NCBI RefSeq assembly: GCF_000293885.2
Contig: NZ_CP010945.1
Location: 6,406,001-6,470,000 of the forward strand
Length of the DNA: 64,000 bases
Direction: 5' to 3'
Source of the DNA: Pseudomonas fluorescens NCIMB 11764
Lineage (GTDB): Bacteria > Pseudomonadota > Gammaproteobacteria > Pseudomonadales > Pseudomonadaceae
Below are positions 38,859 to 48,235 of this stretch, piece by piece. The position numbers and the translations under genes were made by a program. Below the pieces are notes generated by a model. That model had not been told where the DNA came from. It was given only the letters and a program-made list of their open reading frames with translations, and did not search any database. How positions within the stretch are numbered: the first letter of the stretch is position 1; each line of letters starts with the position of its first letter.

Positions 38859-39099
38859 CGAAGATTTCCAGGCAATTTTAAGAAGAAGATTATGACTGTC
38901 CGGGTTATCGGCCAGCAGGGCCATTCACTTGAAGAAAAGGGAATGCTATTACGCGCCCGGAGTCCAAATCTCAAAGGCTTATGCAGGCGCGCTAAATAAT
39001 TGAAGGCGATATCGAGAAACGGGATTATCCTGATTTATTGCATAGCGTCAGCCTCCGCTTCGGATCAGGACGCTCCCGTCGTTGGTACAGGCAGAAGTT

Positions 39100-42000
39100 A
39101 TGACCACCACCCCCAATCGCCCGGCATCTCATAAAGAGCAAAAGGCCTCGCGTCCCAGCACCCTGGACTTTCCGGTGGTGGGCATTGGCGCGTCGGCGGG
39201 CGGTCTGCAAGCTATCAAGTTGTTCTTTGAAAACATGCCGCAGGACAACGGCATGGCGTTCGTGATCATTCTGCATCTGTCCCCCGATCACCAGAGCATC
39301 GCTGACCGGATCATCCAGGAATCGACGCGGATGCCAGTCCTGCAGGTCAGCAAAACGGTGTCCATCGAGAAAAACCACGTATACGTCATTTCACCAGCGC
39401 AACGCCTGTCGATGAACGACGGTTTACTGGAGGTCAGTGCCTGCGAGACCCGGGAATCGCGTCATGCCTCGATTGACCTGTTCTTCCGCGACCTGGCGAA
39501 TGTGCACCGGGAACGGGCTTTCTGCGTGGTGCTGTCGGGCACCGGTTCCGACGGTGCTGTCGGCCTGTCGCGGATCAAGGAACAGGGCGGCGTCACGCTG
39601 GCCCAGGCGCCGCAAGACGCCGAGTTCGACGGCATGCCCCGCGCCGCCATCGACACCGGGATGGTGGACTTGGTCTTGCCGGTCGTTGAAATGCCGCAAA
39701 AGCTGCTGGAGCTGTGGCGCAACTCCCAGGAAATCAGCTTGCCCACCGCCAACGACCCCGAACTTCAGACCATTGCCGCCGTTTCCGAACGTGAAGCGCT
39801 GATAGCCGAACAATTGCTGCACGACGTTCTCATCCAGTTGCGCACCGGCACCGGCCATGATTTCAAGCACTACAAACGCGCCACGGTGTTGCGCCGGATC
39901 GAGCGGCGGATGCAGGTCACGGCCCAGCCGGACCTGGCGGCCTACTACCGTTACCTGCAAGACAATCCGGAAGAAACCAAGGCCTTGCTCGGCGACATGC
40001 TGATCGGCGTGACCAACTTTTTCCGCGACCGGGAAGCCTTCGAAGCGCTGGAGCGCGATGTCGTGCCGCAACTGGTCAGCGCCGCCGTGTCAGCGCACCC
40101 CGAAAAAGAAGAAATTCGAGTCTGGTCCGCCGGCTGTTCCACCGGCGAAGAAGCCTACAGCCTGGCCATGTTGCTCAGTGATCAGCTGCAACTCGATGCC
40201 AGCGCGGCGTCGATGCAGCTGTTTGCCACCGACATCGATGAACGCGCCATCAGCGTCGGTCGGGCCGGCCTGTACCCGCAAGCGATCGTGACCGACGTGC
40301 CGCCAACGCGACTGCGGCATTACTTCCTCAAGGAAGATGACCACTATCGGATCCGCAAGGAAATCCGCGAAAAAGTCCTGTTCGCCAAACACAGCCTGCT
40401 GTCCGATCCGCCGTTCTCGCAGATCGACCTGATCGTGTGCCGCAACCTGTTGATCTACCTGGATCGCGAAGTGCAGCGTGAAATCCTGCAGATGTTCCAC
40501 TTTGCCCTGCGCCCTGGCGGCTTCCTGTTTCTCGGCTCCTCCGAGAGCGCAGATGCCTGCCACGAACTGTTCGCCCCAGTGGACAAGCGTAACCGGATCT
40601 TCCGTGCCAAGACTGGCACGGCCAACAGCCGTCGCACCCCGACCATGCCCCGCGGCGGCTACGTGCGAACCAACATTTCCCAACAGCCTGCGCAAAACAG
40701 CGTGCAGCGCAAATTGTCTTTCGCTGATATCCATCAACGCGCCTTAGAGCAGTCTGCGCCACCGAGTGTGATCGTCGATGCCAACGCCGACATTCTGCAC
40801 ATGAGCGAAAGTGCCGGGCGTTTCCTGCGGCATGTCGGTGGCGAGCTGTCGCGCAACCTGCTGACGCTGATCCTGCCGGACCTGCGTCTGGAGCTGCGCA
40901 CCACGCTGTTCCAGGTCCAGCAAAGCGCGCTGCCGGTCAAATCCCGTGAGGTGCCGATCAAGCGTGATGACCGGCGTCACCTGATCAATCTGGTCGCTCA
41001 TCCCTACAAGGATGAAGGTTCGGACAGCGAGTACGTGCTGGTGATTTTCGAGGAGGTCGAAGTCGACCCTTCCGAGCTGGCAGCGACCACCGTGCTGCAG
41101 AACGAAAACCAGGTGCTGTCCAATCTTGAGCGCGAACTGCAGCGCACCAAGCTGCACCTGCAGGACACCATCGAACAGTCGGAAGTCTCCAGCGAAGAGC
41201 TCAAGGCGTCCAACGAGGAAATGCAGGCGATCAACGAAGAACTGCGCTCGGCCACCGAAGAACTGGAAACCAGCAAGGAAGAGCTGCAATCGATCAACGA
41301 AGAGTTGCTGACGGTCAATTTCGAGCTGAAAACCAAAGTCGAAGAAACCGACAAGATCAACGACTACCTGACCAACCTGATCGCCTCCACCGACATTGCC
41401 ACGGTGTTTGTCGACCGCGCCATGCGCATCAAGTGGTTCACCCCGCGCGCCACCGACATCTTCAGCATGTTGCCGGTGGACACCGGGCGCTCCCTGCTCG
41501 ACATCACCCATCGCCTGGATTACGACAACCTGGCCAGTGACGCGACGCAGGTGTTCGAATCGCTAAAAATGATCGAACGCGAAGTCAGCAGTACCGACAA
41601 CCGCTGGTACATCGCCCGTCTGTTGCCCTACCGCTCCAGCGAAGACCACATCGACGGCACCGTGCTGACCTTCATCGACATCACCAAACGTCGAGCGGCC
41701 GAGGAAGAGTTGCGCCAGGGCGAAGAGCGCATGCGCCTGGTCGCCGAAAGCACCCGCGACTACGCGATTATCACCCTCGATGAACAGGGCGTGATCACCA
41801 GCTGGAACAAAGGCGCCGAGTTGATTTTCGGCTACAGCAAGGCCGAGGCCGAGGGCGCTTACTACGACTTCATCTTCTCCCCCGAGGACCGCGCGGCGGG
41901 CGTGCCGGAAAACGAATTGCTGGCCGTGCGCACCCATGGCCGCAGCGAAGATGAACGTTGGCATCAACACAAGGATGGCAGCCGCTTCTTTTGTAGCGGC

Positions 42001-43233
42001 GAAGTGACCCTGCTCAGGGGCGACAATCTTCAGGGCTATGTGAAAATTGCCCGTGACCTGACCGGTCACAAACGCCAGCACGAAGCACAAAGCCAGGAAT
42101 TGGCGGAAACCCGCAACACCAATTACCTCAAGGATGAGTTCTTCGCGGTCATGTCCCACGAACTCAAGCATCCGCTGAACCTGATCCAGCTCAACGCCGA
42201 GCTGCTGCGGCGCCTGCCGGTGACCAAGTCACTGGCTCCGGCGGCCAAGGCGGTGAACACCATTTGCGACGCGGTCACCAGCCAGGCGCGGATCATCGAC
42301 GATCTGCTGGATGTCGCCCGGGTCCGGACCGGCAAGCTCAAGCTGCAACCGGTCGCCGTCGACCTCGCCAGTGTGCTGCGCGATGTCCATACCGTCGTGC
42401 TCAATGACCAGCATGACGTCACTGTTGAACTGCTGGTGCCGTCCGACGCGTTAATGGTCCAGGCCGACCCGACGCGCCTTGAACAAATCATCTGGAACCT
42501 GGTGAACAACGCCCTGAAATTCACTCCACCCAAGGGCCGCGTGCAACTGATCGCCAGCCAGTCCGGGGACATGGCGCGGCTCGATATCAAAGACAACGGC
42601 GCCGGCATCGCCCCGGAAAACCTCGAGCATGTGTTTGACCTGTTCAGCCAGGCTGAAAAACAACACATCACTCACAACCGCGAAGGGCTGGGAATTGGCC
42701 TGTCGCTGGTGCGTCAGCTGACCGAGGCGCAACACGGCTCGGTCGAGGTGAGCTCTGGCGGGAGCGGCACAGGCTGTACGTTCACCGTCTACTTGCCCTT
42801 GGCCAGGGCCCATGGCGAAGTACAGCCCGCTGCGTGCGCGGAGGATGTTTCCGGAAGACTCAGCGGCTTGACGATCCTGTTGGTGGACGACTCCGCGGAC
42901 GTGCTGGAAACCCTGAAAATGCTGCTGGAGATGGAAGATGCGCAGGTGATTGCCTTTGACCGGCCGGTGGCAGCGCTGGACGCGGCGAAAAGCACGCGGT
43001 TCGACCTGATCATCTCTGACCTCGGCATGCCGGTCATGAACGGGCACGAGCTGATGAGTGCACTGCGTCAGTTGCCGCTCGCGAAGGATGTACCGGCCAT
43101 TGCCCTGACCGGCTATGGCGCCAACAGCGACATTCAGAAATCGCGGCAATCAGGCTTTGACCAGCACATCGGCAAACCGGTGTCCTACGATGACCTGATC
43201 AGCACCATCGAGACGCTCCGACGCCAGCGCTGA
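39100..43233 (+). CDS. CheB-CheR-PAS-histidine kinase-receiver fusion protein
   Basis: A 1377-residue cytoplasmic multidomain protein. Order: CheB methylesterase (about 25-210; active Ser32 in GIGASAGG, His in ILHLSPDH, Asp in SGTGSDGAVG); CheR helical and methyltransferase domains (about 235-500; RVWSAGCSTGEEAYSLAML, DLIVCRNLLIYLDREVQ); a PAS-like domain (about 545-650); a long coiled coil (about 661-755, EELKASNEEMQAINEELRSATEELETSKEEL in parts); two PAS domains (about 757-985); HisKA with His1020 (VMSHELKHPLN); ATPase (about 1105-1235); and a receiver with Asp1307. ATG at 39100 chosen; a TTG at 39082 is possible. No adjacent receptor or che gene. Such fusions are widespread in pseudomonads but largely uncharacterised. 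Confidence 0.93.
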   Translation: MTTTPNRPASHKEQKASRPSTLDFPVVGIGASAGGLQAIKLFFENMPQDNGMAFVIILHLSPDHQSIADRIIQESTRMPVLQVSKTVSIEKNHVYVISPAQRLSMNDGLLEVSACETRESRHASIDLFFRDLANVHRERAFCVVLSGTGSDGAVGLSRIKEQGGVTLAQAPQDAEFDGMPRAAIDTGMVDLVLPVVEMPQKLLELWRNSQEISLPTANDPELQTIAAVSEREALIAEQLLHDVLIQLRTGTGHDFKHYKRATVLRRIERRMQVTAQPDLAAYYRYLQDNPEETKALLGDMLIGVTNFFRDREAFEALERDVVPQLVSAAVSAHPEKEEIRVWSAGCSTGEEAYSLAMLLSDQLQLDASAASMQLFATDIDERAISVGRAGLYPQAIVTDVPPTRLRHYFLKEDDHYRIRKEIREKVLFAKHSLLSDPPFSQIDLIVCRNLLIYLDREVQREILQMFHFALRPGGFLFLGSSESADACHELFAPVDKRNRIFRAKTGTANSRRTPTMPRGGYVRTNISQQPAQNSVQRKLSFADIHQRALEQSAPPSVIVDANADILHMSESAGRFLRHVGGELSRNLLTLILPDLRLELRTTLFQVQQSALPVKSREVPIKRDDRRHLINLVAHPYKDEGSDSEYVLVIFEEVEVDPSELAATTVLQNENQVLSNLERELQRTKLHLQDTIEQSEVSSEELKASNEEMQAINEELRSATEELETSKEELQSINEELLTVNFELKTKVEETDKINDYLTNLIASTDIATVFVDRAMRIKWFTPRATDIFSMLPVDTGRSLLDITHRLDYDNLASDATQVFESLKMIEREVSSTDNRWYIARLLPYRSSEDHIDGTVLTFIDITKRRAAEEELRQGEERMRLVAESTRDYAIITLDEQGVITSWNKGAELIFGYSKAEAEGAYYDFIFSPEDRAAGVPENELLAVRTHGRSEDERWHQHKDGSRFFCSGEVTLLRGDNLQGYVKIARDLTGHKRQHEAQSQELAETRNTNYLKDEFFAVMSHELKHPLNLIQLNAELLRRLPVTKSLAPAAKAVNTICDAVTSQARIIDDLLDVARVRTGKLKLQPVAVDLASVLRDVHTVVLNDQHDVTVELLVPSDALMVQADPTRLEQIIWNLVNNALKFTPPKGRVQLIASQSGDMARLDIKDNGAGIAPENLEHVFDLFSQAEKQHITHNREGLGIGLSLVRQLTEAQHGSVEVSSGGSGTGCTFTVYLPLARAHGEVQPAACAEDVSGRLSGLTILLVDDSADVLETLKMLLEMEDAQVIAFDRPVAALDAAKSTRFDLIISDLGMPVMNGHELMSALRQLPLAKDVPAIALTGYGANSDIQKSRQSGFDQHIGKPVSYDDLISTIETLRRQR

Positions 43234-43904: not shown

Positions 43905-43931
43905 GACAGCCGAAGGGCTGGAATAGGATGG

Positions 43932-44007
43932 TGTCCCAGGGCAGGTTCGAACTGCCAACCTTCCCCTTAGGAGGGGGATGCTCTATCCAATTGAGCTACT
44001 GAGACAC
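43932..44007 (-). tRNA. tRNA-Arg, anticodon CCT
   Basis: On the minus strand the gene starts GTGTCTCAGTAGCTCAATTGG, has anticodon loop CTCCTAAGG (CCT), the T arm GGCAGTTCGAACCTGCC, and ends GGGACAC followed by a discriminator base region and an encoded CCA (43929-43931). The cloverleaf pairs fully. Reads AGG codons. Confidence 0.95.
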
Positions 44008-44139: not shown

Positions 44140-44182
44140 TGCAAATTGCATCACCGCAAAAAGCCATCATTGCAAATTGCAA
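44140..44182. promoter_or_regulatory. Paired palindromes TGCAANTTGCA
   Basis: TGCAAATTGCA at 44140-44150 and TTGCAAATTGCAA at 44170-44182; centres 31 bases apart (three helical turns). They stand about 95-135 bases before the predicted start of a sigma-54-like promoter, the enhancer position. Confidence 0.6.
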
Positions 44183-44247
44183 TGAAGGAGTCCCTGGCAG
44201 ATATCCTAATTTATTGTTTTTAAAGGATTTAATAGACGTTAGACTCT

Positions 44248-44262
44248 TGGCACGTCGGCTGC
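44248..44262 (+). promoter_or_regulatory. Sigma-54-like promoter of the small-protein pair
   Basis: TGGCACGTCGGCTGC: matches TGGCACG-N4-TTGC except C for the first T of the -12 box. The predicted start is near 44274, 25 bases before the ATG, leaving room for the ACGGAGG ribosome site at 44283-44289. Confidence 0.6.
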
Positions 44263-44298
44263 TTTAGCTGTTCTCAAAGAACAACGGAGGCCAGCCTC

Positions 44299-44532
44299 AT
44301 GAACCGTGCCCTTTTACTCTCGAATGCGATCGCTCTGGCGGTCTTGCTGGGTTTTCACTTTTTCCCCGAGAGCAGCGCCGAGATGGTCGCCCAACGCATG
44401 CCCCATTACCTTCAAGTGCAAAGGGCGCCGCAATTGGCGGTGCTGAGTGATCAGCATGGCTTTGTCGGTCAGGAAGTGAGCCAGGAGAATATCCTGCTGC
44501 CGGCGCAGTCTTCCGAACGCCTGGTATTTTGA
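44299..44532 (+). CDS. Small exported or membrane-anchored protein, 77 residues
   Basis: ATG at 44299 with ACGGAGG nine bases before. The N-terminus MNRALLLSNAIALAVLLGFHFFP is a hydrophobic segment with a single basic residue, most like a signal anchor or a weak signal peptide; the following 50 residues (SSAEMVAQRMPHYLQVQRAPQLAVLSDQHGFVGQEVSQENI) are polar. No known domain is recognised. The next small membrane gene begins 23 bases after the stop, so they form a pair. Promoter elements upstream suggest sigma-54 control. Confidence 0.6.
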   Translation: MNRALLLSNAIALAVLLGFHFFPESSAEMVAQRMPHYLQVQRAPQLAVLSDQHGFVGQEVSQENILLPAQSSERLVF

Positions 44533-44555
44533 ACAACCCCCATCAGGAGCACAGC

Positions 44556-44735
44556 ATGTCCAAATCAGCCGCAGGATTTTTCGTCCTTGCCCTACTGAGT
44601 GGCATTCTTCATTTGTCACTGGTCCAGGACTCGGTGGTCACCCTGCCCCTGATCGCCTGCGGCGTTTTCAGCACGCTGTTCCTGCTGGCGCTGGTCGCTG
44701 GCCGCAAGATCAAGTTTGACCCGGTCTTGCGCTGA
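44556..44735 (+). CDS. Small two-span membrane protein, 59 residues
   Basis: ATG at 44556 with CAGGAG seven bases before; a TTG at 44529 in the same frame is less likely. Sequence MSKSAAGFFVLALLSGILHLS then LVQDSVVTLPLIACGVFSTLFLLALVAGRK gives two hydrophobic segments (about 7-24 and 29-51) and a basic C-terminal tail (RKIKFDPVLR). No family recognised. It follows the 77-residue protein in a probable two-gene operon. Confidence 0.6.
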   Translation: MSKSAAGFFVLALLSGILHLSLVQDSVVTLPLIACGVFSTLFLLALVAGRKIKFDPVLR

Positions 44736-45283: not shown

Positions 45284-45610
45284 ATGCGCCCATTGAAACA
45301 GGCAATTTATTCCAGCCGTACGGCTGACAAGTTCGTCGTACGTCTGCCAGACGGAATGCGTGAACGCATTGCCGAGGTGGCTCGCAATCATCATCGCAGC
45401 ATGAACTCCGAAATCATTGCGCGCCTTGAGCAGAGTCTTATTCAGGAAGGCGCACTGGGCGAAGAGTTGAGCATGCGCCTGGACAGCCCGGAGCTGTCAC
45501 TGCACGAACGCGAACTGCTGCAACGCTTCCGCCAACTTTCCCATCGTCAGCAAAACGCACTTGTTTCGCTGATTGCCCATGACGCCGAAATGGCCGCAGA
45601 CGCCTCCTGA
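45284..45610 (+). CDS. amrZ: AmrZ ribbon-helix-helix regulator of motility and exopolysaccharide
   Basis: A 108-residue Arc-family DNA-binding protein. [52 protein letters not shown] (seen in parts) is the RHH domain, with the beta strand KFVVRLP making base contacts; the C-terminal tetramerisation part is [32 protein letters not shown]. It is nearly the AmrZ of P. aeruginosa as I remember it, including the flexible N-terminal tail. AmrZ represses fleQ-dependent motility in some species and activates exopolysaccharide. The terminator after it is strong. Confidence 0.95.
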
Positions 45611-48003: not shown

Positions 48004-48012
48004 GGTGTTTGG

Positions 48013-48086
48013 TGCACTCGACAGGATTCGAACCTGTGACCGCTCGGTTCGTAGCCGAGTACTCTATCCAGCTGAGCTACGAGTGC
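48013..48086 (-). tRNA. tRNA-Arg, anticodon ACG (copy 1)
   Basis: Minus strand: GCACTCGTAGCTCAGCTGG start, anticodon loop CTACGAA with ACG, T arm CAGGTTCGAATCCTG, acceptor CGAGTGC and encoded CCA at 48010-48012. Identical to copy 2. Confidence 0.96.
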
Positions 48087-48161
48087 AATTTGTGTTTTTA
48101 GACCAGATCACAACTGGTTGAAGCAGAGTAGCTCACATTACTGCAAACAACTCTTAAATGG

Positions 48162-48235
48162 TGCACTCGACAGGATTCGAACCTGTGACCGCTCGGTTCG
48201 TAGCCGAGTACTCTATCCAGCTGAGCTACGAGTGC
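48162..48235 (-). tRNA. tRNA-Arg, anticodon ACG (copy 2)
   Basis: Same 74-base sequence as copy 1, 75 bases away, with encoded CCA at 48159-48161. Tandem duplicates usually arise by local duplication and serve the CGN codons. Confidence 0.96.

Follow-up and report, generated by a model that had tools for sequence, protein, structure and literature searches.

A conserved paired-site sigma-54 promoter ahead of a two-gene relative of srgABC in Pseudomonas fluorescens NCIMB 11764, and its probable place in a KinB-AlgB regulon

The control of alginate by KinB and AlgB is long established. KinB reportedly acts via AlgW-dependent proteolysis of MucA, as the title of the 2009 work of Damron states, and AlgB and RpoN were reportedly required. 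An AlgB- and RpoN-dependent product that wakes AlgW was not found named in the literature consulted. The control of alginate by KinB has been linked in print to RpoN and AlgW (PMC6932827, PMC3684759, PMC13001231), algD has been reported as a direct target of AlgB (PMC10418997), and AlgU has been reported to drive algB (PMC13001231). Reviews are at odds over which form of AlgB is active, the phosphorylated or the free one. Neither an AlgB binding motif nor a direct set of sigma-54 targets was found in the literature consulted, and the accessible text of the HT-SELEX atlas (PMC8041468) prints no AlgB motif. Likewise, a literature of mostly open papers, taken without supplements, yielded no AlgB site, no placement of srgABC under AlgB and no AlgB-controlled activators of AlgW; parts of the proposal made below may already be in print elsewhere. 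Three further systems provide points of comparison. The small protein MucE activates AlgW through the PDZ domain with its C-terminal RWVF (PMC8545111, PMC3819740), mucE is dependent on AlgU, and orthologues have been reported only from P. aeruginosa (PMC3819740). In the same species PA3369-PA3371 constitute srgABC, whose overexpression raised survival in plasma through SrgA, independently of alginate, and was accompanied by raised algU and muc transcripts and by more alginate (PMC9901815). Among other sigma-54 promoters with distant activator sites, IHF has been reported for those of CbrB (PMC8871633).

The locus analysed here lies in a stretch of 64,000 nucleotides of the P. fluorescens NCIMB 11764 genome (contig NZ_CP010945.1, positions 6,406,001 to 6,470,000 of the forward strand), referred to as the window and numbered from its first letter. 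All elements of the promoter and operon are on the plus strand. Two exact copies of TGCAAATTGCA, a palindrome of the form TGCA-N3-TGCA, occupy positions 44140..44150 and 44171..44181 as the distal and proximal candidate activator sites; their centres are 31 bp apart, and the proximal copy, which lies within TTGCAAATTGCAA (44170-44182), begins 77 bp ahead of the promoter's TGG. An IHF-like site, TAATTTATTGTTT, follows at 44207..44219 and has one mismatch to the IHF consensus YAANNNNTTGATW. The sigma-54 promoter TGGCACGTCGGCTGCT (44248..44263) has its GG at 44249-44250 and its GC at 44261-44262, conforms to GG-N10-GC and resembles TGGCAC-N5-TTGC, with TGGCACGTCGGCTGC counting as one mismatch. 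Two open reading frames with ribosome sites come next, an SrgA-like gene of 77 amino acids (44299..44532) and an SrgC gene of the PA3371 family encoding 59 amino acids (44556..44735). A preliminary description made from this sequence had reported a palindrome pair 31 bases apart, a promoter at 44248 and genes of 77 and 59 residues, all of which were confirmed in the letters. The surroundings include a tRNA-Arg (CCT) gene on the minus strand directly upstream of the promoter region (43929-44005), a 1383-aa open reading frame (39082-43233, plus strand) that by eye resembles a CheB-CheR-PAS-histidine kinase-receiver fusion, a small Arc-type ribbon-helix-helix gene downstream of the operon (45284-45610, plus strand; PF03869, 90 bits), and two almost adjacent tRNA-Arg (ACG) genes at 48010-48235.

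A search of 57 genomes for the first protein gave matches in 17 (18 match rows, one genome being counted twice), all of them among the 36 genomes of its own genus, of which the other 19 gave no match. The preliminary description had made its reading depend on conservation of the palindromes and the promoter among orthologous loci. Pair and promoter were retained in all 17 genomes with the first protein, and both are present in each of the 17 rows contained in the alignment of these loci, which supports the view that these small envelope proteins are probably expressed from a sigma-54 promoter served by paired activator sites. A scripted count placed 16 of the 18 rows at a spacing of 31; L004 has two full sites at a spacing of 32, and in L011 the pair and promoter lie outside the range of the script and were read by eye. 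Spacings of 24 and 38 also scored in this count (8 and 16 of the 18 rows, respectively), which probably reflects a shift of the register by 7 bp, half a palindrome. Because the middle three bases vary among relatives, the core of the site is TGCA-N3-TGCA; the pair first described thus stands, whereas TGCAANTTGCA as its core does not. The arrangement keeps to the helical phase, with the proximal site starting at -77, -76 or -75 or, in three loci, at -66. The latter sites are closer by roughly one turn of the helix, as would be predicted if the activator must face the polymerase.

Six promoters of this genome, that of the window included, have the same layout. The others precede a gene for an OsmY-like BON domain protein (C1:45379-45502), a DUF3509 gene (C1:5705634-5705756), a DUF1652 gene with the weaker promoter AGGCATGTTTTATGC (C1:4507946 onward) and a gene for a 310-aa membrane protein with a degenerate distal site (C1:5409959-5410049), and one, with two site mismatches, is directed away from algB. 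The search of the genus for such sites upstream of RpoN promoters, which had been proposed with the preliminary description, gave one to six matches of site plus promoter in 57 of 59 genomes, as opposed to a single match of the reversed pattern over all 59, and in the two genomes lacking a match (G008 and G027) an exact pair is nonetheless found next to algB (L178 and L173). An IHF-like site between activator sites and promoter extends the architecture originally proposed. In 158 distinct partner-site promoters, drawn from mutually related loci that had in part been selected by pattern, the spacer contains the exact IHF consensus in 47 cases (0.4% in shuffled spacers) and the consensus with at most one mismatch in 140 (6.5% in shuffled spacers); in 126 of the 140 the site is at -41 or -40.

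In this and related genomes the promoter type precedes envelope and stress genes, namely BON/OsmY, DUF1328 with Ivy, CsbD, hemerythrin and DUF3509. BON-CsbD and DUF1328 genes stand under such promoters in P. otitidis (CsbD being identified by Pfam search), and an Ivy gene does so in G062. PA4738-39 and PA5481-82 of P. aeruginosa presumably belong to these DUF1328/BON/CsbD/Ivy-type families. Together with PA3369-71 they are all lowered in an array table (PMC3557286), a set that fits the promoter type since similar genes are found under it, that for Ivy in G062 and the others in P. otitidis. The promoter pattern is matched six times in the genome of P. otitidis (L316, L320, L324-L327), and two of these matches precede genes resembling DUF3509 by eye. 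At L122 (G072:C1:2744000-2760000) two similar copies of site plus promoter lie about 2.1 kb apart, which suggests a tandem duplication that carried the promoter along. Among 111 genomes that belong to the order but not to the family, 11 have scattered matches (L293-L301, L306, L307), some of which may be due to chance.

AlgB is encoded in all 59 genomes of the genus (79-100% identity), and mere co-occurrence of AlgB and motif is therefore uninformative. The position of the promoters is more telling. With up to three mismatches allowed over the 16 site positions, a paired-site promoter directed away from algB and 210 to 1362 bp off was present upstream of the gene in 50 of the 59 genomes, the remaining nine algB loci having no pair at this threshold, and in none of 285 shuffled algB loci. 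Of the 57 loci L123-L179, 48 scored when three mismatches were allowed and 42 when the limit was two; at the stricter setting a spacing of 31 accounted for 42 loci and any other spacing from 21 to 42 for at most five. Ten genomes have an AlgB of less than 90% identity, and the pair is exact in eight of them and missing at the threshold in two. In G062 and G063 such promoters flank algB-kinB. A pattern devoid of algB coding letters, itself modelled on the algB-side sites, had 114 matches in 113 stretches from named genomes, 98 of them no more than 600 bp from a divergent algB; one lay farther from algB, six were cut by the end of the stretch and nine were without algB. For the best 80 of the 113 stretches, 69 of 81 matches were near a divergent algB.

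The second protein of the window operon is a member of the PA3371 family (NF041882, 85.4 bits at a cut-off of 50) with two hydrophobic segments. The first has a single hydrophobic segment near its N-terminus and ends in SERLVF, and it probably consists of an N-terminal membrane anchor and a short periplasmic part. Homologues of both proteins (best 120 of 222 for the first, best 120 of 216 for the second) came from Pseudomonas and one unplaced Pseudomonadota assembly. The operon is a two-gene relative of P. aeruginosa srgABC, and the target that had been called undescribed proves to be partly described through the PA3371 family and srgABC (PMC9901815). The three-gene form of srg occurs in P. 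otitidis under the same promoter type, where the tail of SrgA is -LSF (RLSF), as it is in both of its metagenome relatives. The same genome also has an algB-side operon whose anchor ends in RWVF.

The C-terminal tail is conserved among the SrgA homologues. In the best 120 of 222, the final residue is F in all 120 and is preceded by V in 108; R occupies the fourth position from the end in 118, and the third position from the end holds L in 116 sequences and W in the other 4. In this genome, the divergent neighbour of algB encodes a 95-aa anchor ending in QERWVF and is followed by DUF1328. A simple ribosome-site rule was used to call the gene immediately following each promoter at the 59 algB loci, which are related to each other; of 55 such genes that were complete, 37 ended in W-V/I/M-F. 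Such a tail was found in 2 of 424 small open reading frames from 13 other stretches, and since both positives lie beside algB-kinB and belong to that set, in none of the 422 others. A cruder tail count (55 of 200 promoters versus 229 of 4000 random segments of the same loci) was set aside because both sets were redundant and overlapping. Beyond anchor and tail, the protein families of the window and of the algB side have little in common. The AlgW encoded in this genome can be aligned with the solved AlgW of P. aeruginosa without a single gap, and five of the seven groove residues tested in PMC8545111 are kept (W281, L282, E285, M342 and R374), the other two being changed (V284 to I, K287 to Q). 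A truncated pilin ending in FTF also activates AlgW (PMC3684759), and the end signal of AlgW is thus not confined to WVF. The -LVF end of the window protein, the -LSF end of SrgA in P. otitidis and the two changed groove residues weigh against a role of the tails in AlgW activation. Activation of AlgW by the tails of the small anchors may be considered a prospect slightly short of an even chance.

The foremost alternative is that the AlgB-RpoN regulon is real and the -xVF end is no signal for AlgW, the small proteins having a structural role in the envelope or carrying a tag for the outer membrane or another PDZ-type protein. The alginate-independent effect of SrgA on plasma survival (PMC9901815) would be in keeping with this, and no test of -LVF or -LSF on AlgW was found in the literature consulted. 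However, families with unlike middles under one promoter type share little except anchor and tail, algU and muc transcripts rise upon srg overexpression (PMC9901815), and the FTF-ended pilin shows AlgW to be responsive to other ends. This explanation is a real contender, albeit one below an even chance. A direct increase of algW transcription by AlgB and RpoN, with small proteins unrelated to AlgW, is unlikely: RpoN is stated to regulate algW expression (PMC3684759, PMC13001231), but the 1.4 kb upstream of algW in this genome contain two isolated one-mismatch sites, with neither a pair nor a strict sigma-54 promoter.

The identity of the activator, which the preliminary description could not name, can now be given as AlgB, the KinB-controlled regulator of the NtrC type, with good probability from the sites at the algB loci. 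Of 31 matches to the activator domain in this genome, 25 including algB were used and six weak ones omitted, and a paired-site promoter was found at none of the 24 loci other than algB (about 0.4-1.2 kb upstream of each). AlgB bears the GAFTGA loop (compare PMC6932827). The pairs at the algB loci, their absence from the other activator loci, the enrichment of spacing 31 and this loop together make AlgB the best reading, with the nine algB loci that lack a pair at the threshold counting against it. It is improbable that another sigma-54 activator controls this genuine promoter class, including the gene divergent from algB, with AlgB as a mere neighbour. In favour of this alternative, 24 other strong activator-domain matches would be eligible, and no site with up to one mismatch occurs in the 1.5 kb upstream of the reported AlgB target algD in this genome (algD being named by eye from the start of its protein); yet none of the 24 loci has the paired sites, and such promoters are still found next to algB in genomes as far from this one as Stutzerimonas and Halopseudomonas. 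NtrC was rejected as candidate because of its half-site spacing, which we take to differ from that of TGCA-N3-TGCA. CbrB was rejected since its published consensus, TGTTAC-N12-14-GTAACA, is a different one (PMC8871633).

Each element of the promoter is unremarkable and common when taken singly. With up to one mismatch, TGCAANTTGCA occurs three times in the window (3.7 expected), and its exact form occurs at 11 places in the whole genome, compared with 8 for the reversed pattern; sigma-54-like sites with up to two mismatches number 76, where 100 are expected. The combination is far from chance. Paired TGCA-N3-TGCA sites with 6-36 bases between them occur at three places in the 7.0-Mb genome and the reversed control at none, and site plus sigma-54 promoter at four places versus none for the reversed pattern, the contrast being weaker (37 versus 15) at fixed spacing with three mismatches allowed. 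A fortuitous resemblance to a promoter without function, compatible as it is with the commonness of the single elements, is contradicted by the conservation and regulon data and can be dismissed.

In the explanation favoured here, to which a probability of roughly three in four is assigned, the locus holds a full sigma-54 promoter that belongs to the KinB-AlgB regulon and drives an SrgA-like/SrgC operon. KinB would set the state of AlgB, which would occupy both TGCA-N3-TGCA sites, separated by about three turns of the helix; the intervening DNA would be bent by IHF, and the AAA+ domain of AlgB would contact the sigma-54 polymerase at TGGCACGTCGGCTGCT and open the promoter. AlgB, RpoN and IHF would thereby bring about transcription of the small anchor genes, here those of the SrgA-like anchor and the SrgC membrane protein, and the operon would be expected to be induced by stress and to depend on rpoN. 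The free tails of the anchors might then open AlgW, AlgW would cut MucA, and the AlgU thus freed would drive algB. The first half of this circuit is supported by the sequence, and the second half is more conjectural. The full proposal, in which AlgB is a dedicated sigma-54 activator of a genus-wide regulon and dissimilar, fast-evolving anchors ending in R-[W/L]-V-F are the physiological activators of AlgW, is advanced tentatively, as somewhat short of an even chance; it would close as a positive feedback loop, since AlgU has been reported to drive algB. If true, it would link AlgB and RpoN to AlgW, reveal a two-component system that switches on AlgU, the envelope sigma factor, through the transcription of peptides that activate a protease, and explain in physiological terms why the regulon contains srgABC and further small genes of unknown function. 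The binding site, the gene list and the candidate peptides make the path from AlgB and RpoN to AlgW directly testable.

Compared with the described systems, the locus combines features that are otherwise found apart. As in the KinB-AlgB system, the proposed activator is of the NtrC type and has a GAFTGA loop, but the reported binding at algD is without a counterpart of the present sites in this genome. Distant activator sites combined with sigma-54 are shared with the promoters of CbrB and NtrC, from which the present ones differ in the sequence of the site (for NtrC, presumably). With srgABC the operon has in common a small periplasmic or anchored first protein and a last protein of the PA3371 family encoded in one operon; it differs by comprising two genes, without the middle SrgB, and by the RLVF at the end of its first protein. 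The likeness to MucE would lie in a small envelope protein with a free C-terminal end, RWVF in MucE and in the algB-side gene and RLVF in that of the window, whereas the genes described here stand under sigma-54 promoters in many genomes of the genus and mucE is dependent on AlgU.
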